The notes under the pieces are model-generated. The model worked only from the letters and a program-made list of their open reading frames with translations. It did no database searches and was not told the DNA's origin. A stretch of DNA of 64,000 nucleotides. Origin: Collinsella tanakaei YIT 12063. GTDB lineage: Bacteria; Actinomycetota; Coriobacteriia; Coriobacteriales; Coriobacteriaceae. Position 1 is the stretch's first letter, and each line of letters opens with the position of its first letter. The DNA lies in the NCBI RefSeq assembly GCF_000225705.1, contig NZ_JH126473.1:82388-146387 (forward strand), in the 5' to 3' direction. The translations under genes were made by a program, and so were the position numbers. Positions 3,978 through 47,978 of the stretch are shown in pieces.

Positions 3978-4814
3978 ATGGCTCAAATCAGCATCGACTA
4001 CTTCTCGTCCTCATTGATGAGGACCACCACTATCGACATACTGCTGCCCTTCGACAGCATGGATGACGCCCTGGGCACGGACTGGGAGATGCGCTCGGAC
4101 GAGAAAGGCTGGGACCGCCGCCCTTACCCGCCCGAGCGCCCTCCGTTCAAGACGCTCTACCTGCTGCACGGCATCACCGGCAACCACGCGGACTGGATCT
4201 CTGAAAGCCGTATCCGCAGCTGGGCCGCCGCGCGCAACCTGGCGGTAGTCATGCCATCCGGCTACAACGCGTTCTACCTTGACCAACCCGAGTCGCACAA
4301 CTTCTACGGCCGCTTTGTGGGCCAGGAGCTAATCAACGTCACCCGTCGCATCCTTCCGCTTTCCACCCAACGCGAAGATACCTTTATCGGCGGCATCTCC
4401 ATGGGTGCCTACGGAGCGCTGCGCGCGGGCTTTAAATACTGCGAAACGTTTGGGTCGGTCATCTCGCTGTCCTCCGCCATGATCGCGGACAACATCGAGG
4501 ACGTCATCAACAACGACGTCTTCTTCCTCAGCCGCTCCTTTTTGGAGTCGACTTTTGGCGACTTATCCCAGCTTGTTGGCAGCGACAAAGACCCCGCGCG
4601 CCTAGCCGCGGACCTGGTTTATTGCAACCGCCCGCGCCCGCGCGTCTTCATGGCGTGCGGCAACGCCGACCCGCTCGCCTATCCCAACCGCGTGCTCGCC
4701 GACCGACTGCGCGGCGTGGGCCTTGAGGTCGAATACCGCGAGCTAGACGGAGGCCATGACTGGGACCTGTGGAACGTCGCCCTACCCCAAGCCCTGGACT
4801 GGCTGGGTCTATAG
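3978..4814 (+). CDS. Esterase family protein (tributyrin esterase / S-formylglutathione hydrolase-like), copy 1
   Basis: 278-residue alpha/beta hydrolase of the putative esterase family (PF00756). Seen: the oxyanion-hole strand YLLHGITGNHADW, the nucleophile elbow GGISMGAYG with Ser131, an acid in the CGNADPLAYPN region, and a catalytic His in GGHDWDLWN. There is no signal peptide, so it is presumably a cytoplasmic carboxylesterase acting on short acyl esters. RBS AGGGGGAACC precedes ATG 3978. A related gene follows 57 bp downstream on the same strand. The two share domain order and motifs but differ clearly in sequence, so the duplication is old. Confidence 0.85.
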   Translation: MAQISIDYFSSSLMRTTTIDILLPFDSMDDALGTDWEMRSDEKGWDRRPYPPERPPFKTLYLLHGITGNHADWISESRIRSWAAARNLAVVMPSGYNAFYLDQPESHNFYGRFVGQELINVTRRILPLSTQREDTFIGGISMGAYGALRAGFKYCETFGSVISLSSAMIADNIEDVINNDVFFLSRSFLESTFGDLSQLVGSDKDPARLAADLVYCNRPRPRVFMACGNADPLAYPNRVLADRLRGVGLEVEYRELDGGHDWDLWNVALPQALDWLGL

Positions 4815-4871
4815 ATTTAGGACGGGGAACTCTGGACGAGGAATTAGCACGCATTAGAGAGGAAGGCGCTC

Positions 4872-5738
4872 ATGGCCCTGCTTCGCATTGACTTCTATTC
4901 CCGCTACCTCAAGCGCAACGTCATGCTTACCGCTGTCATTCCCGCAGACAAGATGGACGGCGAAAAACTGGCCAAACGCCGCCGCGGCCCATATCGCACG
5001 GTTTACCTGCTGCACGGCCTGTTTGGCCGCGACGTAGATTGGATTGATCGCACGCACGTAGTCGAGACGGCGGAAGCGCGTGACGTGGCGGTAATCATGC
5101 CCTCCGGCGAAGACGGACTGTATCTGGACAAACCCGAGATTGACGAGTGGCACGGCAAGTTCATTAGCGAGGAGCTGGTCGACTTTACCCGTCGTCTGCT
5201 ACCGCTCTCCGCCAAGCGCGAGGACACCGCGCTTGCAGGCATCTCCATTGGCGCGTACACCGCGGTGATCAACGGCCTGCTGCGCCCAGACCGCTTTGGC
5301 AGCATCATCTCTCTTTCCGGCGCTTTCATGCGCAATCGCGTGCTAGAGGCGGTGGAATCGCACTCGCCCCGCAAGAAGCGCTACTACGAGCGATTCTTTG
5401 GCGACCTTGACACCGTGATCGGATCTGAAAAAGACTACGTGGCGCTTATCGACCGCTTCCGCGACAATCCGGACCTTCCTCGTCCACGTTTTTACGGAGC
5501 ATGCGGCGAGCACGACAACCTGTGCCAGAACAACCGCGACGTGGTGCAGCTGCTGCGTGACGCCGGTTTTGACGTAACCTACCACGAGCCGGACATTGGA
5601 GCGCACGAGTGGCCCTTCTGGAACGCCTGGATCGACTGCGCCCTGGATTGGTACGCGCCCGGCGAGATGCGCCCTTCAACGGCGGAAATCGACTATTCAG
5701 CGCTTACCAGCTTGCGCCCACCCCAGGACCAACAGTAA
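4872..5738 (+). CDS. Esterase family protein, copy 2
   Basis: 288-residue paralogue of the preceding gene: YLLHGLFGRDVDW oxyanion region, GISIGAYT elbow with Ser125, ACGEHDNLCQNN acid region and a terminal IGAHEWPFWN His. GAGAGGAAGGCGCTC before ATG 4872 is a good ribosome-binding site. It is probably co-transcribed with copy 1 and is followed by a hairpin terminator. The two enzymes may form a heteromeric or differently specific pair, but nothing in the sequence decides that. Confidence 0.85.
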   Translation: MALLRIDFYSRYLKRNVMLTAVIPADKMDGEKLAKRRRGPYRTVYLLHGLFGRDVDWIDRTHVVETAEARDVAVIMPSGEDGLYLDKPEIDEWHGKFISEELVDFTRRLLPLSAKREDTALAGISIGAYTAVINGLLRPDRFGSIISLSGAFMRNRVLEAVESHSPRKKRYYERFFGDLDTVIGSEKDYVALIDRFRDNPDLPRPRFYGACGEHDNLCQNNRDVVQLLRDAGFDVTYHEPDIGAHEWPFWNAWIDCALDWYAPGEMRPSTAEIDYSALTSLRPPQDQQ

Positions 5739-5753
5739 ACTTTACTAGCATAA

Positions 5754-5793
5754 AGCGGGGTCCGCGATGCCGTTTGGCCGCGGACCCCGCTTG
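5754..5793 (+). terminator. Terminator of the esterase pair
   Basis: A 13-bp stem (5754-5766 with 5779-5791) built on AGCGGGGTCCGCG is followed by a short T stretch. Confidence 0.7.
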
Positions 5794-5915
5794 TCATATG
5801 CATCGACACCGCGCGCCGGCAGCAAGGCTGCCCGGCACATAGGGCCCCTCCAAACCAAGTCGCCCGATTACCGCCGGCCCCTCGCCAACGCCCCCGCGCG
5901 CCCACAGGAGGAATC

Positions 5916-6401
5916 ATGGTCAAAAATCTCATTTTGATCCGCCATGGCAAAGCGGAGCCCGGATCCCTCGATCAGCTGGACGAGGAGCGCAGGCTTACTC
6001 ACCAGGGCCTCGACGCGCTTCGCGCGCCCACCGGCTTTGCCCGCGGCGTTTCGCTTATGGATGATAGCGAGCGCGAGCATGCGCAGGTGTGGGTAAGCCC
6101 CGCCGTTCGCACGCACCAAACCGCGCAGGCGCTGCTCCACGTCATTGGAGAGCGCCCGCTTGTAGACAAGGGCTGCCTATGGGAGCAAGACTCCGTCGCG
6201 TTTCTGGACGAGCTTGAGCAAAGCGATGCCCAGACGGTAATAGCCGTGGGACACATTCCTTTTATGAACGATATGGTCGAGCTATTAAGCGGCGCCTGCA
6301 TAGGCTTTAAGCCCGGCGCCATGGCGAAGCTGAGCCTAAGCGATCCCTTGCAGCCCGGATGCGCGGACCTTTCCTGGTTTGTCCAGGGACCCAAAGCATA
6401 G
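5916..6401 (+). CDS. SixA-like histidine phosphatase
   Basis: 161-residue member of the histidine phosphatase superfamily. The phospho-accepting RHG motif stands at the very N-terminus (LILIRHGKAEPG), and the second catalytic His is in VGHIPFM (near residue 112). The length and the immediate N-terminal RHG fit the SixA branch, which removes phosphate from phosphohistidine proteins. CAGGAGGAATC precedes ATG 5916. It is a monocistronic unit between hairpins. The physiological partner is unknown. Confidence 0.8.
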   Translation: MVKNLILIRHGKAEPGSLDQLDEERRLTHQGLDALRAPTGFARGVSLMDDSEREHAQVWVSPAVRTHQTAQALLHVIGERPLVDKGCLWEQDSVAFLDELEQSDAQTVIAVGHIPFMNDMVELLSGACIGFKPGAMAKLSLSDPLQPGCADLSWFVQGPKA

Positions 6402-9320: not shown

Positions 9321-10205
9321 CTACCAGCTTAGAAGCTCGTACCCATCGTTGGTGATGACCAGCTGGACCTCCCACTGCGCGGAGTCGGAGCGGTCGGCGG
9401 TGCGCACGGTCCATTCATTGGGATCGCTCATGTCGATGTCCGGCTCGCCAGCGTTGACCATCGGCTCGATGGTGAAGCAGAAGCCCGGCGCCAACACCAC
9501 GCCCTGACCGGACTGGCCCACAAAACCCACGAACGGGTCTTCATGGAACTCGATGCCTATACCGTGGCCGCCGAACTCGCGGACCACGTTGAAGCCCGCC
9601 CCCTCGGCATGCGCCTGCACCGCGTGGGCTATGTCGCCCAAATGGCCCCATGGCTTGATAGCGGCAAGGCCCGCTTCCACGCACTCGCGCGTCACATCGA
9701 CCAAGCGCTGACGCTCCGGCGGCACCTCGCCCACGCAGAACATACGCGAGGAATCCGAGTAATAGCCGTCCAAAATGGTGGAGCAGTCCACGTTGACGAT
9801 ATCGCCCTCTACTAGGACCTCGTCATCAGACGGGATGCCGTGGCACACCACGCAGTTGACCGACGTGCAGACGCTCTTGGGAAAGCCCTCGTAATTGAGC
9901 GGTGCGGGGACGGCCCCGTGCTCGACCGTGTACTCGTGCACCCAGCGGTCGATGTCGCCGGTGGTGCAGCCCGGGGCGATGCGCTCGGCGACGTAATCGA
10001 GCGCACCCACGTTCACCGCGGCGCTTCGGCGAATGCCCTCGAGATCGGCGGGGGTCTTCAGCAGGTCTCGGGGAAGAACCTCCTCGCCGCGCTCCCACAG
10101 CTCGTTGAGGCGCTCATCGATCGCCAGATGGCATTTCTTATACTTCTTGCCGCTGCCGCACCAGCACTCGTCGTTGCGGCCGAATACGGGACCGTTGTCA
10201 TGCAT
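9321..10205 (-). CDS. map: Methionine aminopeptidase with N-terminal SEC-C zinc motif
   Basis: 294 residues. Residues 9-26 form a SEC-C zinc-binding motif (CWCGSGKKYKKCH, with Cys14, Cys16, Cys25, His26). Residues from about 50 form a type I methionine aminopeptidase. All five metal ligands are visible: the Asp in NVDCS, the Asp in YYSDSS eleven residues later, the His in GGHGIG, and the Glu residues in FTIEPM and QWEVQL. It removes the initiator Met from nascent proteins in the cytoplasm. ATG 10205 is preceded by AAAAGGAGTTAGCC. The SEC-C extension probably helps ribosome or protein contact. It is followed directly by the membrane-protein gene. Confidence 0.93.
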   Translation of the reverse strand: MHDNGPVFGRNDECWCGSGKKYKKCHLAIDERLNELWERGEEVLPRDLLKTPADLEGIRRSAAVNVGALDYVAERIAPGCTTGDIDRWVHEYTVEHGAVPAPLNYEGFPKSVCTSVNCVVCHGIPSDDEVLVEGDIVNVDCSTILDGYYSDSSRMFCVGEVPPERQRLVDVTRECVEAGLAAIKPWGHLGDIAHAVQAHAEGAGFNVVREFGGHGIGIEFHEDPFVGFVGQSGQGVVLAPGFCFTIEPMVNAGEPDIDMSDPNEWTVRTADRSDSAQWEVQLVITNDGYELLSW

Positions 10206-34073: not shown

Positions 34074-36170
34074 TCACTGACGAACGCGATTTTGATGTGA
34101 TATGTATACACCCGTGGCTAATAACGCCGCACCCAGCAGCACGACTCCAGCAGCGCACACAGTCCAATTTATGTCACCCGTCTGTGGAAGCCCTGACGGC
34201 GCATCGCTTACACCAGAATCATCACCATCGGATTGTTCATTGGACCCATTTCCATCAGATGGCGGATTGGAATCTGGCGCGGAGTCCGCTCCGTCATCCG
34301 AATCAGTGTCGGGATTCGGGTCTGGGCTGGGATCCGGGTCGGGCGTCGGCTCGGGATCGGGGTCGGGCGCCGGTTCTGGGTCGGGATCGGGAGCCGGCTC
34401 GGGATCGGGGTCGGGCGCCGGTTCTGGATCCGGGTCGGGAGCCGGATTGGGATCGGGTGCTGGTTCTGGATCGGGGTCCGGACCGGGACCCGGATCAGGC
34501 TGCTTGACATTTGTCACTAGCACCGAAAAGCCCAGTTGCTCGTTTCCTGTGACAACAAATACACCGTGCTCATCAAGCTGGTTGCCAATAGACGTTGCCG
34601 GCTCAAACTTGCTAACAGTCACATCGTAACCATCCAGCCAGGTTGTCTGCCGAATCCTGTATGTACCCGGCTTAAAAGGAGCGAAGCGCCCCTTTCCATT
34701 CTCATCAGTCGTTATATTGAAACCCGTCGAAACCCACTCGCCGTCTTTAAGCTCTTCTAACTCAAAGACACCGCCGGCAAGCGGCATACTCCTATCCTCG
34801 TCATCAACGAGCCTGAACGAAAGGCTATTCTTCCTTGCTACGCCAGGATTTTGACCATTCGCGATTTGATAGGTTGCGCTGTTGCCGCCCTCTTTCACCG
34901 CCGAATCGCCAGAAATCAGGCACTCCCTCTTTCCATAATTCGTAACATCTTTAGTGCCATCAATGTCTGGATAGTAGGTGTTGAACTCAATGTAGTAGCT
35001 GACGATATTTCCGCCCGTTGGGCCTTCATCACCAAAGATGCTTCCATAGCCGGCATCTATGTAATTCTTTCCGTACCAGTAATATTTATAGTAGATGCCG
35101 TTGTTGTCGTCCTTCTTTCCTATACCTCCAAAATTGCAAAAGAACGTCTCGTTCATCTCGCTATCGCAGTAGACGCCCCATTGCAAAGCCTTCTCCGACA
35201 CCCTGGCCTTAAACTGATCCAGGGTTTCGCCGTCATTCTGCACAAGCCTTGTCATCTTCCCGCCGTCACTGTTGAGAAGAAAGCGCTGCGTTCCATAGCG
35301 TTGAGCATAGTACTCGCCCTGTTTCACCTGGTACCAGGTATTGAACGTCATGTCCTTAGCAGCCTGGGCAAGCGTAGGAATCGCTGCATAGATCTGCACC
35401 GTTCCAATATCTACAAACCCTTTTTCGGGAATGGCGTCGCTAATTAGAAATTGATCGTAAGCTTTCGGCACTCGATCATCATCGGGACCAGTGTAACCAT
35501 AGAGATCCATGGAACCAATAGGATTAACCTCGATAGAAATCGTCGCCCCCGGCTTGGTGCCATCTTGTTTATTAACAATGCTCCAACCGTTTTTCCACGA
35601 CGTATCAATATCTACAGATCCCTCCGTGGAAGATGGAACCGGTTCCTTAAATAAGATGGCGCAACTCTTATCGCCCGCTTTAAGCTCCTTTTCTACAGGC
35701 TTCCCTATAGCGGCGCCTACATTTTTCGCCTTTAGCAAGAAAAGATTAAGCTCGCCTTCGATTTTCTCTACTGTATCCGACACTCCATCTAGCAGGGTAA
35801 ATGACAGTCTGTCCTCAAAAATGCTAACTGACACGGCAACGTTGCCGTCTTGGTCTTTTACCTCGTACGGTCCTAGCGGCCACGACCCGCTCTCGTTCGT
35901 AGAAGAGAACAACTCACCTATATTAGTGCTCAAAGATATGCTGTCACCGGGAGCAAGAGGAACTCCTGTTTCCCCCTCCAACGAAAACTTTAAAACGATC
36001 GAGGAAGAGACGTCCCTACCCTGATAAACCTCGGCGGGAGCACTAAGCTCGACAATGGCTGCACTGCGGATCGAGCCCTGCGAAACAGACTCTCCTGTAG
36101 CCGCTACAGCAACAGCCGCCGCAGACAGCAGCATCGACAGCACGGTGAGAAATGCAAAAAACTTCTTCAT
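34074..36170 (-). CDS. LPXTG-anchored surface adhesin with Pro-Asp repeat stalk
   Basis: 698 residues. Signal peptide MKKFFAFLTVLSMLLSAAAVAVAA, then about 450 residues of predicted beta-rich adhesin region, then a Cna-B/SpaA-like domain (FRLVDDEDRSMPLAGGVFELEEL ... YRIRQTTWLDGYDVT). A stalk of about 50 residues repeats PDPDPEPA; in DNA an exact 32-bp block recurs 48 bp apart (34348-34379 and 34396-34427). The C-terminus carries LPQTG at about residue 661, a hydrophobic helix and a short basic tail. It is covalently attached to the wall or pilus by sortase. The base composition is clearly less GC-rich than flanking genes, suggesting acquisition. Last gene of the pilus locus, 9 bp after the minor pilin. 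Confidence 0.85.
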   Translation of the reverse strand: MKKFFAFLTVLSMLLSAAAVAVAATGESVSQGSIRSAAIVELSAPAEVYQGRDVSSSIVLKFSLEGETGVPLAPGDSISLSTNIGELFSSTNESGSWPLGPYEVKDQDGNVAVSVSIFEDRLSFTLLDGVSDTVEKIEGELNLFLLKAKNVGAAIGKPVEKELKAGDKSCAILFKEPVPSSTEGSVDIDTSWKNGWSIVNKQDGTKPGATISIEVNPIGSMDLYGYTGPDDDRVPKAYDQFLISDAIPEKGFVDIGTVQIYAAIPTLAQAAKDMTFNTWYQVKQGEYYAQRYGTQRFLLNSDGGKMTRLVQNDGETLDQFKARVSEKALQWGVYCDSEMNETFFCNFGGIGKKDDNNGIYYKYYWYGKNYIDAGYGSIFGDEGPTGGNIVSYYIEFNTYYPDIDGTKDVTNYGKRECLISGDSAVKEGGNSATYQIANGQNPGVARKNSLSFRLVDDEDRSMPLAGGVFELEELKDGEWVSTGFNITTDENGKGRFAPFKPGTYRIRQTTWLDGYDVTVSKFEPATSIGNQLDEHGVFVVTGNEQLGFSVLVTNVKQPDPGPGPDPDPEPAPDPNPAPDPDPEPAPDPDPEPAPDPDPEPAPDPDPEPTPDPDPSPDPNPDTDSDDGADSAPDSNPPSDGNGSNEQSDGDDSGVSDAPSGLPQTGDINWTVCAAGVVLLGAALLATGVYISHQNRVRQ
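34340..34500 (-). repeat. Pro-Glu/Pro-Asp coding tandem repeat (48-bp period)
   Basis: GC-rich repeats encode PEPAPDPD-type units. The 32 bases at 34348-34379 recur exactly at 34396-34427. Such in-frame repeats can change stalk length by recombination. Confidence 0.7.
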
Positions 36171-36179
36171 CGTTGCATC

Positions 36180-37337
36180 CTATACATCTGGACAATCATT
36201 CTCCTCAGGGTCTTCCGCCGGGCATTGTTCGCCAGACGTGAGACCTCCTCCCTTATCGTCTTGAACAGCCGCTTCATCCTCATCGATCTTGCAAGCTGGA
36301 ATATCGCGATCTTGGCATTCCCGGTTTTCAATAGCATCTTTGCAACGCTGAGAGTCAGCAACGTTCTGCTCGATTAAATCATTCGCCATTTCTCGTTCAA
36401 TCGATTCTGTCGCCATCCCGGCTCCCCGGCGTTTCAGCAGCCCCGACGTCACCAACATGGTTACACCCGCCACTAAAAGAACCGCCGCGACCTGGAACTG
36501 AACGTCGCCGGTCTGGGGCAGGCCGTTCTCCTCGAGCCAATCGTCCAAGGGGTTATCCGGCTTGACGGGACCGTCGGGTTCTGCCGGCTCATCGGGACCA
36601 TCCGGGTTGTCCGGACCGTCGGGGTCCTCGGGGTCAACCGGCTTGTCGGGATCCTCTGGGTCTACGGGCTCATCCGGACCGTCGGGATCCTCCGGATCTA
36701 TCGGCTTGCTGGGATCCTCGCTCTTGGGAGTCACCTCAACACCAAAATGCAGCTCGCCGTCGACGCCGTACGGGACCAGCACCAGCACCGGGTCGATCAG
36801 AACCCGCTCGTTTTCGGGGGCGCTCGCCGTGCGAGCCAGCAGGTACACCCCGCAGCGCACGCTCCCAAACCCGGCCACGCCGTCGCCGTCCGTAACGGCG
36901 GCGCCGGCGGCGAACAGCCCGTTCTCACGCGCGAAGGCGTCCATCTCCTTGGCCTTCGATCGCAGTCCCGCCGCATCGAGCGAGGACCAGTCGCAGGCGT
37001 ACGCCTCGAACTCCTTCACAGTGGAGAATTTGGCAGTCGAGCCCTTCACGCTACCCGTTGCGACCAGGGCGAGCGAATAGGTATCGCCCGCGAGCGCCAC
37101 CTCTTTGCCGCCCACCTGATGATGTGCCTTCACCACTATGGATCCCGAGCATGTGGAAGCGGCCTCGGCGGCAGCGACCTCAAGGGGCGCGATAGGACCC
37201 GCGGACCACGCGGAAAAGAAACCGGGGGCGCCCAACGCGACGCCGCATGCCAAAGCTACGCCGGCAACCGCGCGAACCCGATTGCGAATACGTGCAACAC
37301 GTGCAACGCGCCCGCTATCTAAAGTGCGATCCGCCAC
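36180..37337 (-). CDS. Minor pilin-like LPXTG protein with unusual 78-residue C-terminal tail
   Basis: 385 residues. An N-terminal signal (RAVAGVALACGVALGAPGFFSAWSA) is followed by a compact domain of about 170 residues with paired Cys. A DPEDPDGPDEP-type stalk comes next, then LPQTG at about residue 273, a hydrophobic helix and LLKRR. Unlike a normal sorting signal, the frame does not stop there: 78 more residues follow, acidic and with five Cys, beginning MATESIEREMAND. GGGGAG lies just upstream of that internal ATG. I chose GTG 37337, 9 bases after AAGGGGG; ATG 37358 also lies in frame. It starts inside the 3' end of the sortase gene (22-bp overlap), so they are co-translated. Its position next to sortase C suggests a basal or minor pilin. 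Confidence 0.75.
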   Translation of the reverse strand: MADRTLDSGRVARVARIRNRVRAVAGVALACGVALGAPGFFSAWSAGPIAPLEVAAAEAASTCSGSIVVKAHHQVGGKEVALAGDTYSLALVATGSVKGSTAKFSTVKEFEAYACDWSSLDAAGLRSKAKEMDAFARENGLFAAGAAVTDGDGVAGFGSVRCGVYLLARTASAPENERVLIDPVLVLVPYGVDGELHFGVEVTPKSEDPSKPIDPEDPDGPDEPVDPEDPDKPVDPEDPDGPDNPDGPDEPAEPDGPVKPDNPLDDWLEENGLPQTGDVQFQVAAVLLVAGVTMLVTSGLLKRRGAGMATESIEREMANDLIEQNVADSQRCKDAIENRECQDRDIPACKIDEDEAAVQDDKGGGLTSGEQCPAEDPEENDCPDV

Positions 37338-38250
37338 TACGGCAATCCCCCTTATCATTTCCCTCAATCCTAGAATGCGCGCCAGAGTGCGCCCGCTCAG
37401 CGTCGGCACGGGCGTCCCCGCGCAGCACCAACACGCCCAGCGCGATGGCGACCACGATCATCGCGGCGATGAGCAGCACATGGGGCAGCGACAGGTTGAT
37501 GGGGTTGCCCTCAACCTCGGCCTCCTGCTCCATCTCCTCCGTATACGGAATGCCATGGGCATGCACCAGCAGCCTATGCGAGTTGATGCCGTACGGCGTG
37601 CACGTCACCAACGTGCACAGATCCTCGCCCGCGCGAATCGCCAGGCTCTCGGTCTCATTCGGCAGCACGGTCTCGATCGAGTCGACCTGGTAGGCGAACG
37701 TCTCGCCAAGGACGCGGATGAAGAAATGGTCGCCCACCTCCATCTTGTCCAGATCGGTAAACAGCTTTGCGGAAGGCAGGCCGCGGTGTCCGGACAGCAC
37801 GGAATGCACCGACGGCGCGCTCACCGGCAAAGACGTCTCCGGCATGTGCCCGGCGCCAACCTGCAGCACCGGCTCCTCGACCGTATGGTAGATGGGCATG
37901 TTCACATCCAGACGAGGGATGCTGAGGTATCCCATCATGCCGTCGCCGTTGAGGTTAAGCAGGTCGTCGTACGCCGCCTGGAGCGACTCGGCGTCGGCAG
38001 GGGCGCTTTCGGACGAATCATCCGTCTGCACCCCCGCCAACGCGGCCAGGCCCTGGTTATATGCGCGGGCATCGGCGAGCATCTGGGCGTACTCTTCTTC
38101 GCTCAGGTCTTCCACCGCTTGGTCGTAGCTAGCGATCGCGCGGCTCGAGTTGCGCTCGACCAAAAAGTTGCTCACCGTGGGATACAGCAGGATGGCCAGC
38201 CCCGCGAGGACCATGAGAAGCGGCAGGATGTCGTCGAGCTTTTTACGCAT
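37315..38250 (-). CDS. Class C sortase (pilus polymerase)
   Basis: 311 residues. An N-terminal hydrophobic helix (about 9-28) is followed by the sortase core. Catalytic His is in VLSGHRGLPSA, catalytic Cys in TLVTCTPYGINSHRLLV, with the essential Arg eight residues after it, and a second C-terminal hydrophobic helix (about 260-280). Two membrane helices and the TLVTCTPYG wording fit class C (SrtC/SpaA-cluster) enzymes, which link backbone pilins through Lys-Thr isopeptide bonds. ATG 38250 has AGGAGGGCCTTGCCGC in front, 15 bp after the backbone pilin stop. Its 3' end overlaps the minor pilin. Confidence 0.92.
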   Translation of the reverse strand: MRKKLDDILPLLMVLAGLAILLYPTVSNFLVERNSSRAIASYDQAVEDLSEEEYAQMLADARAYNQGLAALAGVQTDDSSESAPADAESLQAAYDDLLNLNGDGMMGYLSIPRLDVNMPIYHTVEEPVLQVGAGHMPETSLPVSAPSVHSVLSGHRGLPSAKLFTDLDKMEVGDHFFIRVLGETFAYQVDSIETVLPNETESLAIRAGEDLCTLVTCTPYGINSHRLLVHAHGIPYTEEMEQEAEVEGNPINLSLPHVLLIAAMIVVAIALGVLVLRGDARADAERAHSGAHSRIEGNDKGDCRSGGSHFR

Positions 38251-38264
38251 GCGGCAAGGCCCTC

Positions 38265-39983
38265 CTAGCGCTGCGCGTTCTTACGGCGCACGGCCCACGC
38301 AACGCCGCCGACGACCACGGCAGCGCCGATGACGGTGAAGGCGATGGTGCCCATGCCGCCGGTCTCGGGGAGCACGGAGCCCGTCTTGTTGACGATGGTG
38401 ATGACGTGTTCGTCATTACCACCACAGGTCGTGGTAGTACCCTGGTCGTCATCCTTTCCATTAGCCGTATCGCCGTAGTCGATAACGTGACCATTCAGAG
38501 ATCCGTCTTCTGCAATATCCGCAGAAATGACCACCTTGATGGGGTCCTTGAGCGGGTTGTAACCATTCGGAGCCGTTATCTCCTTGACAAAGTAAGTACC
38601 CGTAGCAAGTCCAGCGAGGTTAAGCTTGCCGCTTTCAGGAGTGGTCACGGTGTCCGAACCATTCTCGGACACAATCCACTTACCAGCGTTGTTGTCCGTC
38701 CCCTCTGTGAATTTGACAACGGTGTCGCCATCGGCGTCATAAGACCCGTTTTTATTTGTATCTGCGTATACGCTGAACACAGCACCAGCAAGCGGCTTGC
38801 CGTCGGCGATGCCGGCGCGCTTGTCAAGGACAAACCCGAACGTATAGGTTTTGGTCTGGTCGTGTACGCCTTCCTCGGTCTTGCCAGGCTCGGTCGTGTA
38901 TTCGACGTAGGCTTCGTTGGTGTTGGGCTTTTCGATAAGTGCCTGGTCGTTCACCCTAGCCTGGTAGTACACCTCGATCTTCTTGCCGGCAAGGGTAGCT
39001 TTATTCTGGTAAAGGTAAGTGCTCAGATCGACCGTCAGCTTCGTGGTGCCATCCTTCTCGGCGGAAGCATTAACGGTGAACTGCTCTCCTTGCAGGCTCG
39101 TCCCGTTAACCTTCACGACAACCTTGGGGTCGGTCGCGGAATTAAGCAGCGTCAGGCCCTTGGGCAGGGTGTCGTGCAGCTTGAAGGTGTATGCGTCGTA
39201 GCCGGTCATGTCGGGGACGGCGGATTCCAGCTTGAAGGTGAGGAGGTCGCCCACGCTCGCAGACTGGCCGTTCGCGCCAGCCTTGCCCTCTGCGAGAGGC
39301 GCCAGGGAATCGATCTCCATACCATGGTTGCCCTCCCAGTCGGGGTTGACAATGGCATCGAGGCCGCCCGTCGGGTTCTCCACGATGCTCTTGTCGACCG
39401 TGGGATACTCGGACTTAATTCTCCACTCCTTATTTGCGGGAATGTTGACCAGCGTGGCGTCGGTGTGGCGCTCGAAGGAGGTGGAACCCTGCGCGGGGTA
39501 CACCAGGTAGTATCCATGATCGAGACACGTGAACGTTGCAGACGCGCCAGTATCCGTCTTTGTGGCCTTCGATGAAGTCTTTACAAGCGAGGCTACGGCA
39601 TCCTTGCCATTTCCGCGTACGTAATCAACGGCCTCCTTAGCGAAATTGACCAAGTCGTCATCTTGGAGATTAAGCACGTAGTCATACGCCGCCGCGGAGA
39701 GCGCGTCCCCAGAGATGCTATCCATAGTGGACTCGCTCAAACCCTGAAAGAAAGTTTCCCAGGCGGCCTTCAGCTTATAGGTGGTGGCCGTGTCGTCTCC
39801 ACCCTCAGAGCTAAACATCTGAACCGCGTAAACGTTTTTATCGACCATGCTGGCGGGACCGCTTACCGTCAGATTACCCGTTCCAGCCGCGAACGCTTCT
39901 GCAGGCAGCGCGCCGGCGACCATCACCAGCGCCATCATGACCGCCAGCGCCATGCTGGCGATGCGTTTTGTCATCGTTTTCAT
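38265..39983 (-). CDS. Isopeptide-forming pilus backbone protein (SpaH/FimA-like major pilin)
   Basis: 572 residues. Signal peptide ends around ALPAEAFAAG. The pilin motif WRIKSEYPTVDKS carries the Lys used for polymerisation. Cna-B-type middle domains form internal isopeptide bonds, and the E-box YFVKEITAPNGY supplies the catalytic Glu. The cell-wall sorting signal is LPETG at about residue 538 with hydrophobic helix and RRKNAQR tail. All the marks of a SpaA/SpaH backbone are present and intact. ATG 39983 follows GGAAGGAATGATTCG. It lies between the giant adhesin (presumed tip) and sortase C, in the standard tip-backbone-sortase order. Confidence 0.92.
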   Translation of the reverse strand: MKTMTKRIASMALAVMMALVMVAGALPAEAFAAGTGNLTVSGPASMVDKNVYAVQMFSSEGGDDTATTYKLKAAWETFFQGLSESTMDSISGDALSAAAYDYVLNLQDDDLVNFAKEAVDYVRGNGKDAVASLVKTSSKATKTDTGASATFTCLDHGYYLVYPAQGSTSFERHTDATLVNIPANKEWRIKSEYPTVDKSIVENPTGGLDAIVNPDWEGNHGMEIDSLAPLAEGKAGANGQSASVGDLLTFKLESAVPDMTGYDAYTFKLHDTLPKGLTLLNSATDPKVVVKVNGTSLQGEQFTVNASAEKDGTTKLTVDLSTYLYQNKATLAGKKIEVYYQARVNDQALIEKPNTNEAYVEYTTEPGKTEEGVHDQTKTYTFGFVLDKRAGIADGKPLAGAVFSVYADTNKNGSYDADGDTVVKFTEGTDNNAGKWIVSENGSDTVTTPESGKLNLAGLATGTYFVKEITAPNGYNPLKDPIKVVISADIAEDGSLNGHVIDYGDTANGKDDDQGTTTTCGGNDEHVITIVNKTGSVLPETGGMGTIAFTVIGAAVVVGGVAWAVRRKNAQR

Positions 39984-40113
39984 CGAATCATTCCTTCCCT
40001 CAAACGCATGACATTTACTACTACTTATCTGCTACGGCACGCTATCGGCGCCGCGAGAGATACTTCCTTCAAACGCGCCCACTCGAGAAAGAGGGCGTTT
40101 TTCGCCGCTCACA

Positions 40114-43100
40114 TCAACGACTACGCTTCCTTCCACGAGGCGCCGCATGAGCACCACGAGGCGCACGACCTCGCAAATGGCACGTCCATGATGGCAAAGA
40201 GATATTGAAAGCAGCACCAACAGAACCCAGCCGCCGACGACGGCGCTCATACAAGCCAAAGGTCATCAGAGCCGCGCCTGCGAACATGAAGAACCACGTT
40301 CCCATGCCTCCCGTTTCAGGCAAAGGCAAGCGGTTGGTCACCGTGATCACATATCCGGTCTCATCCTTCGCGACGCTATAGCTATAGCTGGTCTCCCCTT
40401 CATAGGAGCCAACCTGCACTTCTTCGACCGAATATGTGTAGTAGCGCACAACCGAGGGGTAAACCGTCTTGTCTTCGAACGCCACGGGCAGGCCGCCCAC
40501 CACCTTGCGCCAGGTTTCGGACCACTCGGAGGCATCGGCCGCGGTCAGCTTCACCTCAAGTATGCCGTTCGTGCCGAACGTCGAATCGTCCACGACCACG
40601 CCGTCGGCGTTGGTGTAGGTGCGCTTGAGCTTGAAGGTCACTTCGTCAGGGCGCGTGTTACCCGCATTTGCGTTATCCATCCACACCTTCTGCAGCGTGA
40701 TGTCCGCCAGCGCGGAGCACGGGTCTTGGCCCTCGCCCGGCTCGGGCGTGATGCCGCCGGTGCCGGGAGTATTGAGCGCATCGTCCATGAGCACGGCCTT
40801 CGCGGGAGACACATAAGCCTCCATGGCAACCGGCGCGGTGCCGTCTTCGTCTTGCATGACGGCACCCTCAAGCTCATCGAAGCTCGAAATCTTGTCGTAG
40901 TGCTGCACCTCGTAGCGGTTGTAGTCAGTGCCGCTTGCCGTGTCTTGCTGAGCATGCGAGAAAACGCCATCAGCCTTCGCCACGGCGTCGGTCAGCGCGG
41001 CGTTCATGTCGCGATAGATCGAATACAGGTTGTAGCGGCCTTCGTTGTCTGCGCCCTCGATGGCGCTTGCGTCTTTGAAATAGTACGACTGCAGATTCGT
41101 CATGCCCGAGAACGGGCCCACCAGCTCGGAGGTGCCGCGCACCACGTCGCAATAGACCATCTGGTTGCCCTCGAACAGACCTTCCTTGTTGTGGCCCACG
41201 AAGCCGCCGGCATAGCCCGCGTTGTCGGGGCGCTGATTCTTGTCTGCAGGCAGGCCGCCTTCCACCGCCGCGCCGTCGGCATCTTGCGTGGCGCCGCCGC
41301 CAAACACGTCGTAGCCCGCATGCGCGCCCGTGACCTTGCAATTAGTCACCGTGGTGCGGTTACCCTTGATGAGCGTGATTCCCAGGTTCGCCTTGTTATC
41401 TTCAGGGTTGATCAAGCCGTCTTCGTTGCACGGCAGCTTGATGGTGGAGTCACCGATGGTGATGATGGCGGTATCAGACTGCGCCGGGTCGTTCGAATCG
41501 GCCTTGGCAAGCGCCACGCCGATGCGCAGGCCCAGCAGGTTCACGTAAAGCAGATCGCCGTCGGAAAGGATCTTCAAGCCCAGCAGCTCGCCCAAACCGG
41601 GGAGGATGAAGCTACTCAGGTCGATGACGCCCAGATTCTGAAGGTCGTCTAGATACAAGGCCTTCACCAGCTGGTCGACGATGACCAGCAGTAACTCAAC
41701 CACGACGGAATCGACCTGCGTGTTCACGATGAACGACATGTCAGTTTGGCCGATGAAGCCCGCCGCAACCTGATCGCTGCGCACTATGCCCAGGTTCGAC
41801 ACCTCGCAAGCGTCGATTTTGGACAGATCACCCAGGCCCACGAAGCCGCCCGCGATGTTTTGCGCGGCATCGTTGCCCTGCTCCACGATGTCTTGGCCGG
41901 CATCGGTGCCGCTGGTCACCGTGAAGCCGGAGGCAACGCCTTCCACGCGGCAACGGTCGGCGTGCGAACCCCACACGTCCAACGCACCGGCCTGCAGCTT
42001 CAGCAGATTGAGAATCTGCCCGATTCCTGCTTCGGCCTCGTCGATATCGACTGTGGAATTCTTACCCATATAACCCGCGAAGCCGCCCGCGTAGCTGGGC
42101 GCCGTCACGGTGGAAAGCGCGCTCACGGTGCAGTCTTTGACCGAGCCGTTCAGCAAGCTGCCGGCGAAACCGCCCGCATTGCCGAAGTAGCGTAGCGAAT
42201 CCATGGTGCCCACTGTGTCGGCCGTGTTGGCGCGCACCTGGGCGCCGTCGGCCACGCCCGTCACGCTTGCGTGATAAATGTAGCTGCGGAATGCGTCCAG
42301 CACGCTGACGTTGCCCAGGCCGATCAGGCTCAGGATGGATGTCTTGTTGGTGCCGGCATCGGTGCCGCCCACGTCGGCCACGCTTCCCACGTCTGCCAGA
42401 CCCACGAAGCCGCCTGCGTTCTTGCCGCCAGAAACACCGCGCAGACCGTTGACGGAAAGTTTCGAAGCGCCTTCCTTGCTGCCGAGCACAGCAGATTCGC
42501 AGCTGCCCACGAAGCCGCCGGCTGCGGCGGCGAATCCGGTTTCGCCGTCCTGCTGATACGACCCATCAACCACGAAGCCCCATGCCTCGTCGGCAGACGT
42601 CACGGACGCGCCTCGGATGGTAGTCATGGTGGCCTCGAGCACGTTGGCGACATCGCCCGGCTGGCCGATGACGGTATCGAGAATGCCCTGCAAAAGGCCG
42701 TTGCTCGCGTTGGTATTCGCGTCGATGGCCGAGCCAGGAGCCGCCGTGCCCGCATAGCCGCCCACCGTGTTGGTGCCTTTCACCAAGCGCAGGTTGCCCA
42801 CGTTGCAGCCCGTTGCGCCTTCGGTGTCGCCCCAGATCTGCGCGCCTTCGGCATAGCCCACGTAGCCGCCGGCATGGCCGCAGCCGTACTTCTCGTCGTT
42901 TTCGACGCTGCCCGTGCCGCGGGCCTGCACCGTCATGCCCTCACGATAGCCCGTCGTGGAAGACGAGCCCTGAATGCTGGGCACGAACACCTGAGCCGCC
43001 GACACAAGCTGGCCCAGGTTGAGCTTGAGGCCCAGAATGCTCACGCCGCCCAGGTTGGCCGCGCCGCCGCTTTCCATGAAGCCCGCATAGCCGCCGGCGG

Positions 43101-46100
43101 CACGCATGGCGCGCACCGTCTTGGCATCGTTTGCCGCGCCGTCGCTGACCACGCCGCTGCGCATGATGCCCACGTAGCCGCCGGCCACGCCGCCGTCGCA
43201 TTCGTTGACCGCGTTGCTGTAAGCGCTGCGGCCCGCCGCCACGTTGTAACCATATATATAGTTGGCAAGCTTGGCGTCCAGCTCTTCCTGCGAGTTCACC
43301 TTGCCGGTTTGGGCAAGGTCGGCGCCGAAGCCGCCGTTCACGCCGACGTAATCGACCCATGTGTTCCAGGTGCCTACATCGATGCCGGAAAGCGGGCCCG
43401 TCACGCGCGTCTGACGCTGCGTGGGATAGACCACCGACAGCGCCGAGGCCAGCGTGTCAACCTTGATCAGGCCGAACAGCAGGCTCAGACTGCCCGTGTC
43501 GGCCGTATCGGCAGGACGCATGAAGCCGATGTAGCCGCCCGCAACCTCGGTGCCGAACACCGAACGCATGCGGTCGGCGAACGCCGTACGCGTGGGACCG
43601 GTGTATGCGGCCGCTTTCCAATCGCTCGAATCGTTGCCCCAGATCTGGCCGCCTTCGTTGTAGCCGGCGTAGCCGCCCGCCATGCCGCGCATGGTGGTGC
43701 CGTCGGATTCCGCCTGCGCACGCACCACGCCGCCGCAGGGTACGCAGTCGGTGGAGCTGTTGCGCACCGTGGGAACGAAGCTTTCCACCAAACCGGCCAG
43801 GCTGTCAATGTTGGCGAGTTTTTTCAGAATGCTGCTTTCACCGCCGCCGAGCACTTCGGCCACACTGCCGGGCTCCATGCCGCCGGTATATCCGCCCGCA
43901 GCGATGCGGCCAACCACGTGCGAGAACGAATGGGCGCTGGAATCCTGAATGTGAGCACCGGTAATACGGCCCGCGAAGCCGCCGGCATAGCCTTCGGAAC
44001 CGTCAGCCGTGGTGGCACGCACCGCATAACCGCCCGGCATGCCGTACACGTCGGAATGCTCGACCGTGGAAACCATCACGTTGAGCGCGGAGAGCACGTC
44101 GGTCAGATTGATGGTCGTGCCCAGAATACCCAGGCCTTTGCCCACCGATGCGGTGGAGCCGATGTCCAGGCGGCCCGCATAGCCGCCGGCATAACGCAAG
44201 CCGTCGATGGCCCATGGCGTAGTTGCGTCGTAATAGGCGTCGATCGCGTCAGCCTCAAGATCGGCGGGGTCTTTGATCGCCGTATGGGCGATCTTGTTCA
44301 CGTCGCAATTGGAAATCTGGGCGCCCGAGGCGTAGCCCGCGAAGCCGCCCGCAGCGCCGGAGTTCGTATCGAACGCGTCGACGCGGTTCGCGCGCACGGT
44401 GAATCCGTCGAGCGAATTCACGCCTGCGTCCGACACCGTGGCAACATAGGCGTCAATCAGGCTGAGCAAATTGGACAAATCAACCTGAAGACCCTTGATG
44501 CCGCCCAGGATGCTCAGGCCACCGCCTCCGTCGGCCGCTGCAGCAAGCGCACCCGAGGTGAGCAGGCCCGCGAAACCGCCTGCATAGCTGCCGCCCTCGA
44601 CGCTCTTCAAGTTGTTGACAGCCCATTGGTCGGCATCCGCATCGTTTTCAGGCATGCCTTCCACCACGCCGCTGCGGAACACGCCCGCAAAGCCACCAGC
44701 TTCGTCGGCCACGACGGTGGCATCGCCGTCGACTGCGTAGGTCACATTGCAGTCGCTATATTTCGGAATAAGGTAAGGGACGGCGCTGAGCAGGCCGGAA
44801 ATGGAGCTGAGCGCAAGGATGGATGCGTCGTCTGCCACGTCGGCAAGGCCGCCCGTCTCGGAATTGCCCACGAAGCCGCCGGCCGCGCCGTTGTCGGCAT
44901 CGGCCGACACGCGGTGAAGGCCCACCACGTTGCAGTTCGATAGCTGGGCGCTGTGGTTGTCGGCCACGAAACCGCCCGCGGTTGCCGCGGAAACGCCTGC
45001 GTCCGACGCAACATCTTTGGTTGCTTCCACCGTGAAGCCGTTCGCGTGGCCCGTCACGGTGCAGTTTTCCGCCGTCACGCTCACGCCTTGGCCCACGGCG
45101 AGCAGGCCCGTGATGCTCACGGCACCAAGGCCAAGCAAATCAAGACCACCGCTGCCCGCCAAGTTGCCGGGACCCATGACAGCCGCAAAGCCGCCGGCGC
45201 GCGTGCCCGCCTCTACGGACGCTATATCTTTAATATGTACATTGGTGCACGAACCGCCCGTGGCCTCGGCGACGGCGCCGGCCGCATGCGAATCGGCCGC
45301 AGTCACCGTTGCACCCTCCGCGACACCCAACACCGTTACGTCACTCAACTCGAACGGCAGATAACCGCCCAGGCCGACGGTACCGTTGATGATGCCTCCC
45401 ACGGAAGCTGTGCCCAGCATGCCCGCAACGCCGCCGGCACGCGTCTGGCCTGCCACGACCGAACGCAGGCCGTTGAGGGTAACGGGGCTGTCCGTTGCAG
45501 GGCGCACGACCGCACCCTGGCTCCACAGTTTGATGTCGTCAAGATGGTCCTGGTCGGATTTCGCAATTACCACGCCATCGCCGCGACCCACGATGCCGCC
45601 TGCGAAGTCGTTGGCGGAATGCACAGTGAAGTCACCCTTCATCTGCACTCCCAGCAGCTTGGACTCCTCAACGCCCACAAGGGAAAGCAGATTCTGCGCC
45701 GCTTCGGGTTTGCTCGTCAGGAGACCCGTAAGCAGGCCGTTGACGCCGGTCAAAAGATCGGAATTCTTATTTTCACCCTGTCCGAGGTCGGTCGCCCAGC
45801 CAACCGTAGCCGCGCCCGTGAAACCGCCCGCCAACGCCTTAATCGAGAGCTGGCCATCATGCTCTTCTTCGTGACCGGTGGCGGAAACGTTAACCGTGCC
45901 TTCTACAGCTGCATCAACCGCGTAGCTGTTCGCCATAGCGCCCGCGAAGCCGCCCGCATAGCTGGCAGCAGTCACTGTCACGCCCGAACGAACCACGCAT
46001 CCCGCAGCAGCGCTTTGCGGCTGGGCAACACGAACCAGCTCAACGCCGACCTCGGACAAAGCACCCTTCATAACATCGTTGCGCATGAGACCTGCAAAAC

Positions 46101-47517
46101 CGCCCGCATACAAACGAGCCGTCACCTTATAAGGATTGGCGCTCTCTACCGAGCAGTCCTGCGCGATGGCGCCCACCATGACGCCTGCAAAACCACCTGC
46201 GTAATCGTTGTTTGCAGAGCCGATGGTCTCGCCCGCTGCGAAGTTATGGACCGCACAATGAGAAATCACAGGATTAAGGTACCCGTTAGGCACCAGAGCC
46301 CCTGCGTCGATAATATTACTGTCAAGCAGCAGCGTAATGAGGTCGCCCAGGCCAAGACCAGGGATAACATTGAGAAGATGGGCTAACAGCTCGACAACTT
46401 TACCGAGAGATTCGGATGCATACTGCGTGTCGCCTTGCACGTAACCGGCAAACCCGCCATTCATCTGCGCGACGGAGGAAACCTTCGCCTCATGCACCTC
46501 GCAGCCCGACACTTCGACATCGCCCACGATGCGGCCCGCAAACGAGCCTGTCGCCAGCGCCGATGGGTCGGCGGCGCGCACGTTCAGGAGGTTTTCGATC
46601 AAGCCGCTTAGGTCTATCTTGCCAAGCGTAAGGATTTCCAACAGAGTGCTGACCAGTCCACCAACAACGGTACCCAAGCCTTTGAGCAGTCCACTTATTA
46701 GCGACTGGTCCACGAGCACCTCTGTGGCATGGTTTTCAACCGTGACCTTTTCGAGCGTGATGTTGCTTGCGGTTGCCTTCGTCGGCGCTGCGAAGGGGTT
46801 TTTGCCATCAAGCTTATTGGATATGGTGCCAAAGAAGCCGATACCCGTGTTTTTACTCACGTCGAGCTTGGCACCAGACTGGACCACCTTCACGTTGGAG
46901 ATGACGGGGTTGGCGACGGTGGTAACGTCGGTGATGCTTTTACCGTCTGCTCCGATGCAGGACCAAAGGCTGCCCGGCGTATCAGGGGTATCGCTCTTCG
47001 CTCCGAGCATGGTGCTCGAGAACATGAGCGGATCCCACCCCGTGTTACCGGGGTCTGCAGCGTTCGTGCTCAAATCGATATCGCGGAAGATGAGGTAGTT
47101 GGCGTCGATAGAATAGGTGAGACCGGTATTCACCCTGCCCTCGAGAGCATCATCGCGCTCACCGTTTTCCCCCTCGGTGAAATACAGGGTCCGCTTTCCG
47201 CCAAGGAGAGGGTGCTCAATGATTGAATTATGAAACTCCTTGTCACGCAACGTACCGTCAGTAACATCCGCATCGCCGGCATAGGCAACCTGCACCTCAG
47301 AAATGTCCTCCCATTTTCCTATGCCAAGAGCGCCTTTGAATTCTTGCTCAACCTGGTAAACGGTGCCCGAGATAACGTGCTTGCCCGACCCGATCGCGCG
47401 CAGCTGCTGCTCGTTGCCAATGAGAATATAGGTAACACCATTGATAGCTGCCGTGGACTGGCCAACGAAATCGCGACCGCCCAGCGCATCCACCGCGTCA
47501 CGGTCCGCAACCAGCAC
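40114..47517 (-). CDS. Giant GLUG-repeat LPXTG adhesin, main body (frame disrupted at a poly-G tract upstream)
   Basis: About 2,467 residues from the first possible GTG, but the real protein starts at 47978; the two parts are separated by a frameshift at a nine-G tract (47674-47682). The body holds about thirty repeats built around [AG]GGFAG or [AG]GGYAG (GLUG-like), spaced roughly 60-90 residues apart. A Cna-B domain follows (LQKVWMDNANAGNTRPDEVTFKLKR through VITVTNRL), then LPETGG, a hydrophobic helix and ERRRRR. After this the frame continues for 38 more residues instead of stopping. No internal start has a convincing ribosome-binding site, so this part depends on frame correction. It is presumably the tip adhesin of the pilus. 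Confidence 0.8.
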   Translation of the reverse strand: MLVADRDAVDALGGRDFVGQSTAAINGVTYILIGNEQQLRAIGSGKHVISGTVYQVEQEFKGALGIGKWEDISEVQVAYAGDADVTDGTLRDKEFHNSIIEHPLLGGKRTLYFTEGENGERDDALEGRVNTGLTYSIDANYLIFRDIDLSTNAADPGNTGWDPLMFSSTMLGAKSDTPDTPGSLWSCIGADGKSITDVTTVANPVISNVKVVQSGAKLDVSKNTGIGFFGTISNKLDGKNPFAAPTKATASNITLEKVTVENHATEVLVDQSLISGLLKGLGTVVGGLVSTLLEILTLGKIDLSGLIENLLNVRAADPSALATGSFAGRIVGDVEVSGCEVHEAKVSSVAQMNGGFAGYVQGDTQYASESLGKVVELLAHLLNVIPGLGLGDLITLLLDSNIIDAGALVPNGYLNPVISHCAVHNFAAGETIGSANNDYAGGFAGVMVGAIAQDCSVESANPYKVTARLYAGGFAGLMRNDVMKGALSEVGVELVRVAQPQSAAAGCVVRSGVTVTAASYAGGFAGAMANSYAVDAAVEGTVNVSATGHEEEHDGQLSIKALAGGFTGAATVGWATDLGQGENKNSDLLTGVNGLLTGLLTSKPEAAQNLLSLVGVEESKLLGVQMKGDFTVHSANDFAGGIVGRGDGVVIAKSDQDHLDDIKLWSQGAVVRPATDSPVTLNGLRSVVAGQTRAGGVAGMLGTASVGGIINGTVGLGGYLPFELSDVTVLGVAEGATVTAADSHAAGAVAEATGGSCTNVHIKDIASVEAGTRAGGFAAVMGPGNLAGSGGLDLLGLGAVSITGLLAVGQGVSVTAENCTVTGHANGFTVEATKDVASDAGVSAATAGGFVADNHSAQLSNCNVVGLHRVSADADNGAAGGFVGNSETGGLADVADDASILALSSISGLLSAVPYLIPKYSDCNVTYAVDGDATVVADEAGGFAGVFRSGVVEGMPENDADADQWAVNNLKSVEGGSYAGGFAGLLTSGALAAAADGGGGLSILGGIKGLQVDLSNLLSLIDAYVATVSDAGVNSLDGFTVRANRVDAFDTNSGAAGGFAGYASGAQISNCDVNKIAHTAIKDPADLEADAIDAYYDATTPWAIDGLRYAGGYAGRLDIGSTASVGKGLGILGTTINLTDVLSALNVMVSTVEHSDVYGMPGGYAVRATTADGSEGYAGGFAGRITGAHIQDSSAHSFSHVVGRIAAGGYTGGMEPGSVAEVLGGGESSILKKLANIDSLAGLVESFVPTVRNSSTDCVPCGGVVRAQAESDGTTMRGMAGGYAGYNEGGQIWGNDSSDWKAAAYTGPTRTAFADRMRSVFGTEVAGGYIGFMRPADTADTGSLSLLFGLIKVDTLASALSVVYPTQRQTRVTGPLSGIDVGTWNTWVDYVGVNGGFGADLAQTGKVNSQEELDAKLANYIYGYNVAAGRSAYSNAVNECDGGVAGGYVGIMRSGVVSDGAANDAKTVRAMRAAGGYAGFMESGGAANLGGVSILGLKLNLGQLVSAAQVFVPSIQGSSSTTGYREGMTVQARGTGSVENDEKYGCGHAGGYVGYAEGAQIWGDTEGATGCNVGNLRLVKGTNTVGGYAGTAAPGSAIDANTNASNGLLQGILDTVIGQPGDVANVLEATMTTIRGASVTSADEAWGFVVDGSYQQDGETGFAAAAGGFVGSCESAVLGSKEGASKLSVNGLRGVSGGKNAGGFVGLADVGSVADVGGTDAGTNKTSILSLIGLGNVSVLDAFRSYIYHASVTGVADGAQVRANTADTVGTMDSLRYFGNAGGFAGSLLNGSVKDCTVSALSTVTAPSYAGGFAGYMGKNSTVDIDEAEAGIGQILNLLKLQAGALDVWGSHADRCRVEGVASGFTVTSGTDAGQDIVEQGNDAAQNIAGGFVGLGDLSKIDACEVSNLGIVRSDQVAAGFIGQTDMSFIVNTQVDSVVVELLLVIVDQLVKALYLDDLQNLGVIDLSSFILPGLGELLGLKILSDGDLLYVNLLGLRIGVALAKADSNDPAQSDTAIITIGDSTIKLPCNEDGLINPEDNKANLGITLIKGNRTTVTNCKVTGAHAGYDVFGGGATQDADGAAVEGGLPADKNQRPDNAGYAGGFVGHNKEGLFEGNQMVYCDVVRGTSELVGPFSGMTNLQSYYFKDASAIEGADNEGRYNLYSIYRDMNAALTDAVAKADGVFSHAQQDTASGTDYNRYEVQHYDKISSFDELEGAVMQDEDGTAPVAMEAYVSPAKAVLMDDALNTPGTGGITPEPGEGQDPCSALADITLQKVWMDNANAGNTRPDEVTFKLKRTYTNADGVVVDDSTFGTNGILEVKLTAADASEWSETWRKVVGGLPVAFEDKTVYPSVVRYYTYSVEEVQVGSYEGETSYSYSVAKDETGYVITVTNRLPLPETGGMGTWFFMFAGAALMTFGLYERRRRRLGSVGAAFNISLPSWTCHLRGRAPRGAHAAPRGRKRSR

Positions 47518-47639
47518 GTTGCCGGCGGTGTCGCCATCGCCCTGCTGCAGGACCTCGGCGCCCTCGATCTGCGCGGCATCCTGCTCTGCGCTCGATGCAC
47601 CGTTATCGGAATCCTGGCTGCTATTGTCTTTTTTAGCCT

Positions 47640-47978
47640 CTACATCATTGCCGAAAGAGTTGCTATTGGAAGACCCCCCCCCGCACGTAAATCGTGCTGA
47701 AGGCTCTCGTCTTCCTTGCTGCCTATCTGATCATATGCGACAGTGGAAGCCGCATCGCTATCGTTGTCGTCGACAGCAGCCGCATCGGTATCAAAGACCG
47801 AAACGTTTACATCATCATTTTCCGAGGCATAAGAAACAGAATTACCGCTATAACCCATTTGGATCCGTTCGATGGCACGCGACAGCTGCCACGCGCCAAC
47901 GGATGCTGGAACCGATCCCAGGCTGAAAGAACATGTAAGAACGGCGACGATAAGCGCCCTTGAATATTTGTGCTTCAT
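47640..47978 (-). CDS. N-terminal part of the giant adhesin with signal peptide (truncated by poly-G frameshift)
   Basis: 112 residues as it stands: signal peptide MKHKYSRALIVAVLTCSFSL, Ala/Ser cleavage region, then an acidic stretch (NDDVNVSVFDTDAAAVDDNDSD). After AGGG, encoded by the G tract, the frame runs into a stop. The other frame, SSNSNSFGND..., joins directly into the giant adhesin. A tract of seven or ten G instead of nine would restore one continuous gene of about 2,620 codons. The promoter region is AT-rich with a 10-bp inverted repeat (48003-48040). In this sequence state the adhesin is off unless slippage occurs in transcription or translation. Confidence 0.75.
   Translation of the reverse strand: MKHKYSRALIVAVLTCSFSLGSVPASVGAWQLSRAIERIQMGYSGNSVSYASENDDVNVSVFDTDAAAVDDNDSDAASTVAYDQIGSKEDESLQHDLRAGGGLPIATLSAMM
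47674..47682 (-). repeat. Nine-base homopolymer (G9 on the coding strand)
   Basis: C9 on the plus strand, at codons 99-102 of the adhesin gene. It is the only point where the reading frames of signal peptide and body separate. Such tracts expand and shrink by slipped-strand mispairing. Confidence 0.9.

Follow-up and report, generated by a model that had tools for sequence, protein, structure and literature searches.

The question raised by this locus is whether a giant surface-protein gene at the head of a sortase-pilus cluster is dead, misassembled or reversibly switched. In the 64,000-nucleotide stretch of Collinsella tanakaei YIT 12063 that was analysed (hereafter the window), an ORF with a Sec-type signal, as judged by eye, and a far longer LPXTG-type ORF lie in different frames with a G tract between them (Table 1). 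Automatic annotation is likely to label such a gene as broken. We conclude instead that it very likely belongs to a phase-variable (contingency) sortase-pilus locus, switched by slippage of the G tract.

Table 1. Features of the putative phase-variable pilus locus (window coordinates)
Feature	Coordinates	Strand	Evidence
Upstream ORF (stub), 112 aa, Sec-type start	47640..47978	-	N-terminus read by eye
G9 homopolymer, proposed slippage tract	47674..47682	-	8 further genomes of the order carry G9/G10 in the corresponding gene part
Giant body frame, 2538 codons stop to stop, GLUG-like motifs, LPETG	40114..47730	-	Sequence read
Cna_B-like region of body	40342..40701	-	Pfam PF05738, E 0.0055, below its cut-off
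LPETG sorting motif of body	40309..40323	-	Motif; Gram_pos_anchor match under its cut-off (E 0.061)
Backbone pilin, 572 aa, LPETG	38265..39983	-	GramPos_pilinBB 4.1e-19, SpaA 3.9e-14, Gram_pos_anchor 1.5e-7
Pilus sortase, 311 aa	37315..38250	-	PF04203 6.8e-24; TLVTCTP motif in translation
LPQTG surface protein, 409 aa from GTG	36180..37409	-	Gram_pos_anchor match slightly short of its cut-off (E 0.00092)
LPQTG surface protein, 698 aa, SpaA-like domain	34074..36170	-	SpaA 6.5e-7

Stub, tract and body frame

The initial annotation had placed the meeting point of a signal-peptide ORF and an LPETG body at a nine-G tract, and both the frames and their coordinates were confirmed. The tract is written as nine C on the forward strand (47674-47682), which is G9 on the coding strand, and begins 296 bases after the start codon of the upstream ORF, called here the stub. 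The stub runs from ATG 47978 to a stop at 47640; no clear Shine-Dalgarno sequence was found before its ATG, and the Sec-type character of its N-terminus was judged by eye rather than by a signal-peptide predictor. The body frame is open from 47730 to its end at 40114. The two frames overlap by 91 bases (47640-47730), the tract lies inside this overlap, and at the tract the body is in the -1 frame relative to the stub. The proposed arithmetic of tract lengths and frames was also correct: in the assembled G9 state, translation from the stub start stops after 112 residues.

The body had further been described as lacking a start of its own, and no start from which it could be exported was seen. 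Its earliest possible start is GTG 47517, which is not followed by a signal peptide, and none was recognised by eye after any of the 11 candidate starts listed. Translation of the body on its own from GTG 47517 or a later codon would have some sites at its disposal, as GTG 47493 is also present and a GGAGG stands 11 bases before GTG 47295. However, none of the listed candidates would supply the signal peptide, and a protein begun at GTG 47295 would lose 74 residues of a region in which the conserved columns start at residue 12, making independent translation extremely improbable.

The body carries 25 GLUG-like AGGxxG/A motifs, and behind its LPETG come a hydrophobic stretch and basic residues. 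At E 0.001, Pfam returned nothing for body or stub; at E 0.1, the body gave only Cna_B, Glug and anchor matches, all of them below cut-off. No match of the body to PDB sequences was found with phmmer at E 0.1. A predicted model of the first 500 body residues (pLDDT 76.8, pTM 0.80, alignment of 15) was mostly beta with helical insertions. A structure search with this model gave no PDB match at E <= 0.001 (best 3n6z, E 0.013), and the weaker matches (E > 0.001) were mostly beta-helix enzymes and tailspikes, IgA1-protease entries included. A protease identity was rejected for the body, since its sole HExxH (residue 549) lies in what reads as a linker. The labels "adhesin" and "tip" are suggested for the body protein by gene order and resemblance. 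A long tail of tens of residues after the LPXTG anchor and basic cluster was seen in the body (40114-40240) and also in homologs L025, L027 and L031, the last two from Slackia (see below).

We also asked whether the tract is more than a chance run. Dinucleotide shuffling of the window gave a mean of 3.57 matches for 8-G runs, and 79 of 100 shuffles contained at least the two observed; as such a run is not unusual under this null, the shuffles lend no support to the tract. In the real 64-kb window, however, long runs are few: its C/G runs comprise 57 of length 5, one of length 6, none of length 7 or 8, and one of length 9, which is the tract. Genome-wide (2.49 Mb), there are 16 G7, 11 G8 and nine G9 runs, and none longer. 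With nine G9 tracts per genome, a given 91-base overlap would contain one by chance with a probability of about 3e-4. As for codon usage in the body, GGG accounts for 9 of 361 glycine codons, and none of 59 Gly-Gly pairs is encoded as GGG-GGG.

The tract in homologous genes

A search of 395 genomes of the order with the first 500 body residues (from GTG 47517) gave matches in 13, among them the genome of the window. One of these genomes (G313) contained a remnant with no readable gene start and was left out of the tract count, so that 12 genes were compared. In nine of the 12, again including the window, nine or ten G were located between the signal peptide and the conserved body, although these nine are not independent of each other, G039, G144, G186 and G143 being close. 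The tract was in frame in seven genes, all with G9 (G316, G308, G030, G039, G143, G144 and G151), and out of frame in the window (G9) and in G186 (G10). The remaining three (G022, G203 and G103) had leader and body in frame and no tract. Where measured, the tract was offset from the start codon by 125 bases (two Slackia), 163 bases (G039, G144 and G186) or 296 bases (window).

The tract is kept while the surrounding sequence diverges. In a six-sequence alignment, the nine G columns were invariant. To the left of the tract, G151 shared 22-29 of 59 positions with the other five (27-29 of 59 with the four close ones), and G030 shared 34-35 of 76 with the four close sequences. At the other extreme, G186 and G039 were identical at 277 of 285 positions around the tract, with G10 in the former and G9 in the latter. 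Tract length thus differs between close relatives and the frame is flipped with it, the two genes being in opposite frames; in G186 the body frame has no stop before the contig ends. The proposal of a switching tract was strengthened by these homologs, in which the tract persists both at lengths that keep the frame and at lengths that break it. From the presence of the tract in the same region of related genes, and in both frame states, it can be inferred that the tract very probably turns the gene on and off reversibly.

The stub itself was seldom recovered: a search of 43 genomes of the genus matched two, the own genome and G022. Stub residues 1-52 resemble the N-terminus of a single 2728-codon ORF in G022 (38%, E 1.8e-5). 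In this genome of the same genus, a stub-like leader and the body are thus contained in one ORF without a tract, which indicates that stub and body belong to one protein.

These comparisons bear on three other explanations of the out-of-frame tract. The first is an error of sequencing or assembly, the true tract being in frame and the gene simply on in the isolate. Homopolymers are error-prone in assemblies, and the available text of PMC9187656 cautions that G-tract lengths in databases can be wrong; moreover, there is one assembly of the strain, and seven of the nine tract-bearing genes (the window counted among the nine) are in frame. However, an error would alter the state of this isolate alone and not the conserved tract, and a separate genome, G186, is likewise out of frame. 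We regard an error as unlikely.

The second is a dead gene, that is a fixed loss of function by frameshift at a chance homopolymer. It would account for the sole assembly being out of frame, but it is very improbable given that 2538 open codons are left, the LPETG is present, the downstream cluster is intact, and a similar leader tract occurs in the genes of eight other genomes, seven of them in frame. The third is programmed -1 ribosomal frameshifting or transcriptional slippage, by which some full-length protein would be made with the DNA unchanged. Relative to the stub, the body is indeed in the -1 frame, and G runs can slip. Yet the seven tract-bearing homologs that are already in frame would have nothing to gain from such a mechanism, and it is the tract that is conserved, not the frame offset. 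This explanation appears improbable; a low level of frameshifting may nevertheless leak through on top of DNA switching, which remains the preferred reading.

Outside the genus, the first 500 body residues were also matched in Slackia and Bifidobacterium records. The giant LPXTG genes of Slackia sp. MAG JAUNLI01 (L027, G316) and Slackia faecicanis DSM 17537 (L031, G308) were about 73-75% and 56-59% identical over this region, respectively. Like the window, both loci have G9 in the leader and an LPETG pilin-like ORF downstream, and in S. faecicanis a sortase-like ORF (by motif) is found downstream as well. Unlike in the window, the G9 is in frame, the tract flanks differ, and the host is labelled as a member of another family.

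Seven Bifidobacterium-type homologs were read (L028, L029, L030, L032, G401, G404 and G405). G401 has an in-frame G9 in its leader, while a leader tract is absent in five of the seven; in the genome group around L028, a match was present in six of nine. Judging from the sequences compared, the G tract is a frequent, not a fixed, feature of this giant-protein family, and switching is not essential to the family, as the tract is missing in three of 12 genes of the order and in five of seven Bifidobacterium-type homologs. Some of the latter showed peculiarities of their own. In G405, a G8 stands some 1170 bases ahead of the matched stretch. In Bifidobacterium moraviense (L029), the giant homolog has a G9 (9451-9459) ahead of what appears to be its start, perhaps a promoter or leader tract, and the giant frame seems broken further on. 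In Bifidobacterium primatium (L032:10381-10933), the counterpart of the giant gene is broken into two frames, of 559 and 2415 codons, which overlap, and no C/G run of at least 6 was found there.

The pilus cluster and the extent of switching

Downstream of the tract, the cluster reads on one strand as the giant LPETG gene, the backbone pilin, the sortase and two LPXTG-type proteins. With pilin and SpaA domains and an LPXTG motif in the backbone, and a sortase gene adjoining it, the cluster is of the SpaA-type pilus kind. The gap between body and backbone measures 130 bases (39984-40113), and that between backbone and sortase 14 bases. The start of the 409-residue LPQTG gene overlaps the sortase gene, and its real start may be further in.

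The initial annotation had referred to G-tract switching of sortase pili in bifidobacteria, and this precedent is real. According to the available text of PMC9187656, G-tract slippage occurs in Bifidobacterium breve UCC2003 in the first gene of the sortase pilus clusters bbr_0113 and bbr_1889. One locus was a mixture of 37% G11, 59% G12 and 3% G10, and the other was less varied (about 93% G10 and 6.5% G9). In strains with the tract set in frame, which were additionally under the P44 promoter, pili were seen by electron microscopy, and the authors state that direct proof of the pilus proteins is lacking. Transcription was found to drop past the stop of the stub, and the authors concluded that the downstream pilus genes including the sortase need an in-frame tract (PMC9187656).

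As far as the same text describes them, the B. breve clusters and the window share their layout: in both, the first sortase-pilus gene consists of a Sec-signal ORF, a G tract and an LPXTG ORF, and a sortase belongs to the cluster. The second ORF is giant in both cases (2674 aa in bbr_1889b, 2538 codons in the window), a likeness of description and not of compared sequence. The tracts are G11 and G10 in B. breve versus G9 in the window, and the stub has 65 aa (bbr_1889a) versus 112 aa. For B. breve, a mixture of tract lengths, the presence of pili and an enrichment in mice have been shown; the window locus, in a coriobacterium, is described here from its sequence.

This precedent also bears on how much of the cluster is switched. 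The initial annotation was right about the kind of variation, as tract, frames and homologs agree with it, and doubtful about which genes switch. It assumed that backbone and sortase would stay expressed; this is probably wrong, given that the off state of B. breve lowers the downstream pilin and sortase in the published account (PMC9187656), and by the same token the whole pilus is probably switched here. By this analogy, we would expect the pilus as a whole to be off in the out-of-frame state, with somewhat better than even confidence.

For the adhesin alone to be switched, with backbone pilin and sortase made regardless, a promoter would be needed beyond the tract. One could lie in the gap before the backbone gene, or within the body, and have escaped a scan for sigma-70 consensus sites. 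In that scan, the interval 37200-40300 was empty of promoter-like sites on both strands, against 0.9 expected in shuffles, and upstream of the stub a sole site was found (48368-48341), against 0.8 expected; both results are weak, as only consensus sites were sought and coriobacterial promoters may differ. Together with the drop of transcription past the stub stop in B. breve, the scan leans against switching of the adhesin alone, which we consider rather doubtful.

For switching of the whole pilus, the following mechanism is proposed. Slippage during replication would add or remove G between signal peptide and body, so that the two are joined or separated. In the G9 state, the giant LPETG protein would not be exportable, and uncoupled transcription would fade before reaching backbone pilin and sortase, if the locus behaves as in B. 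breve. Reverse slippage would re-open the frame.

Poly-G frameshift switching of surface functions, as proposed here, is described for Campylobacter jejuni cj1421, cj1422 and cj1426 in the available part of PMC8713573, and reportedly also for poly-G contingency genes of Neisseria; these are other genes in other phyla, and population variation has been reported there. No report of the switch in coriobacteria was found among the matches listed for Collinsella, Coriobacteri-, Slackia, Olsenella, Eggerthella and Atopobium (titles and abstract starts), and "Coriobacter" occurs 0 times in the main text of PMC9187656, so far as that text was available. A switch known from Bifidobacterium would here be extended to coriobacteria, related giant surface proteins being present in both groups. 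When colonisation or adhesion is compared, the on/off state of the pilus must be measured, not taken from one assembly.

Other G tracts in the genome

Where MutS-type repair is lost, homopolymers usually slip more often. MutS_V (PF00488), the sole repair family searched, had no match in the genome, and 11 of 14 control genomes were matched. Without MutS, G tracts would be expected to drift faster.

Eight G9 tracts are present besides that of the pilus gene, and five of them are located in gene types that are often switched, namely three tail-fibre modules, a methyltransferase-like gene and an acyltransferase-like gene (the last two by eye). Among the 11 G8 tracts, the one in the fibre array was examined as a gene, and the others were translated in three frames.

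The fibre array (L011, G000:C1:404000-416000, tracts at about 4645-6340) comprises five small tail-fibre-like modules in a row, with G9, G8, G9, G7 and G9. It sits behind Baseplate_J, Tail_P2_I and collar-fibre genes, the collar-fibre match being just below cut-off. In each module the tract follows a common N-terminus (QP-I/V-S, then NLKA), and one of the bodies matches Gp10_C. The array has the appearance of a set of alternative fibres among which slippage selects. The G7 module alone is in frame; as exactly one of five in frame is not unusual at a chance of one third each, mutual exclusion does not follow from this "one on" pattern. Sorensen et al. reportedly described poly-G tracts in Campylobacter phages in 2021, to go by the title.

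A prophage copy in IMG/VR (L099) was identical to the prophage of the genome at 10055 of 10055 aligned bases, tracts included. As this copy may come from the very assembly analysed here, and the pilus gene lies outside it, it gives no independent evidence on the tract. Neither a plasmid search with the leader DNA nor a viral-contig search for the tract and its flank found anything.

It is conceivable, though short of probable, that this coriobacterium, in which no MutS was detected, has a repertoire of G-tract switches across its whole genome and that the pilus tract belongs to it. Pilus, restriction-modification-like gene, acyltransferase-like surface gene and five-module prophage fibre array would then all vary by the same slippage, and the surface states of phage and host might thereby follow one another.

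The individual tracts outside the prophage fibres were located as follows. An 896-residue ORF with a cytosine-methyltransferase-like C-terminal part or fusion, recognised by eye, is found at L016:2101-4791 (G000:C4:225000-234000). Its G9, following TILTSE, cuts the C-terminus, whose expected continuation lies in another frame, making the ORF a candidate switched restriction-modification gene. The acyltransferase-like membrane protein (L013:5047-6084, G000:C1:666000-677000; by eye) has an in-frame G9 and adjoins flippase-like and polymerase-like genes. The three remaining G9 tracts are those at L015:4236 and L014:4634, across neither of which a clear gene runs, the latter lying just behind a small ORF, and at L012:9101, associated with a small ORF near phage-like genes.
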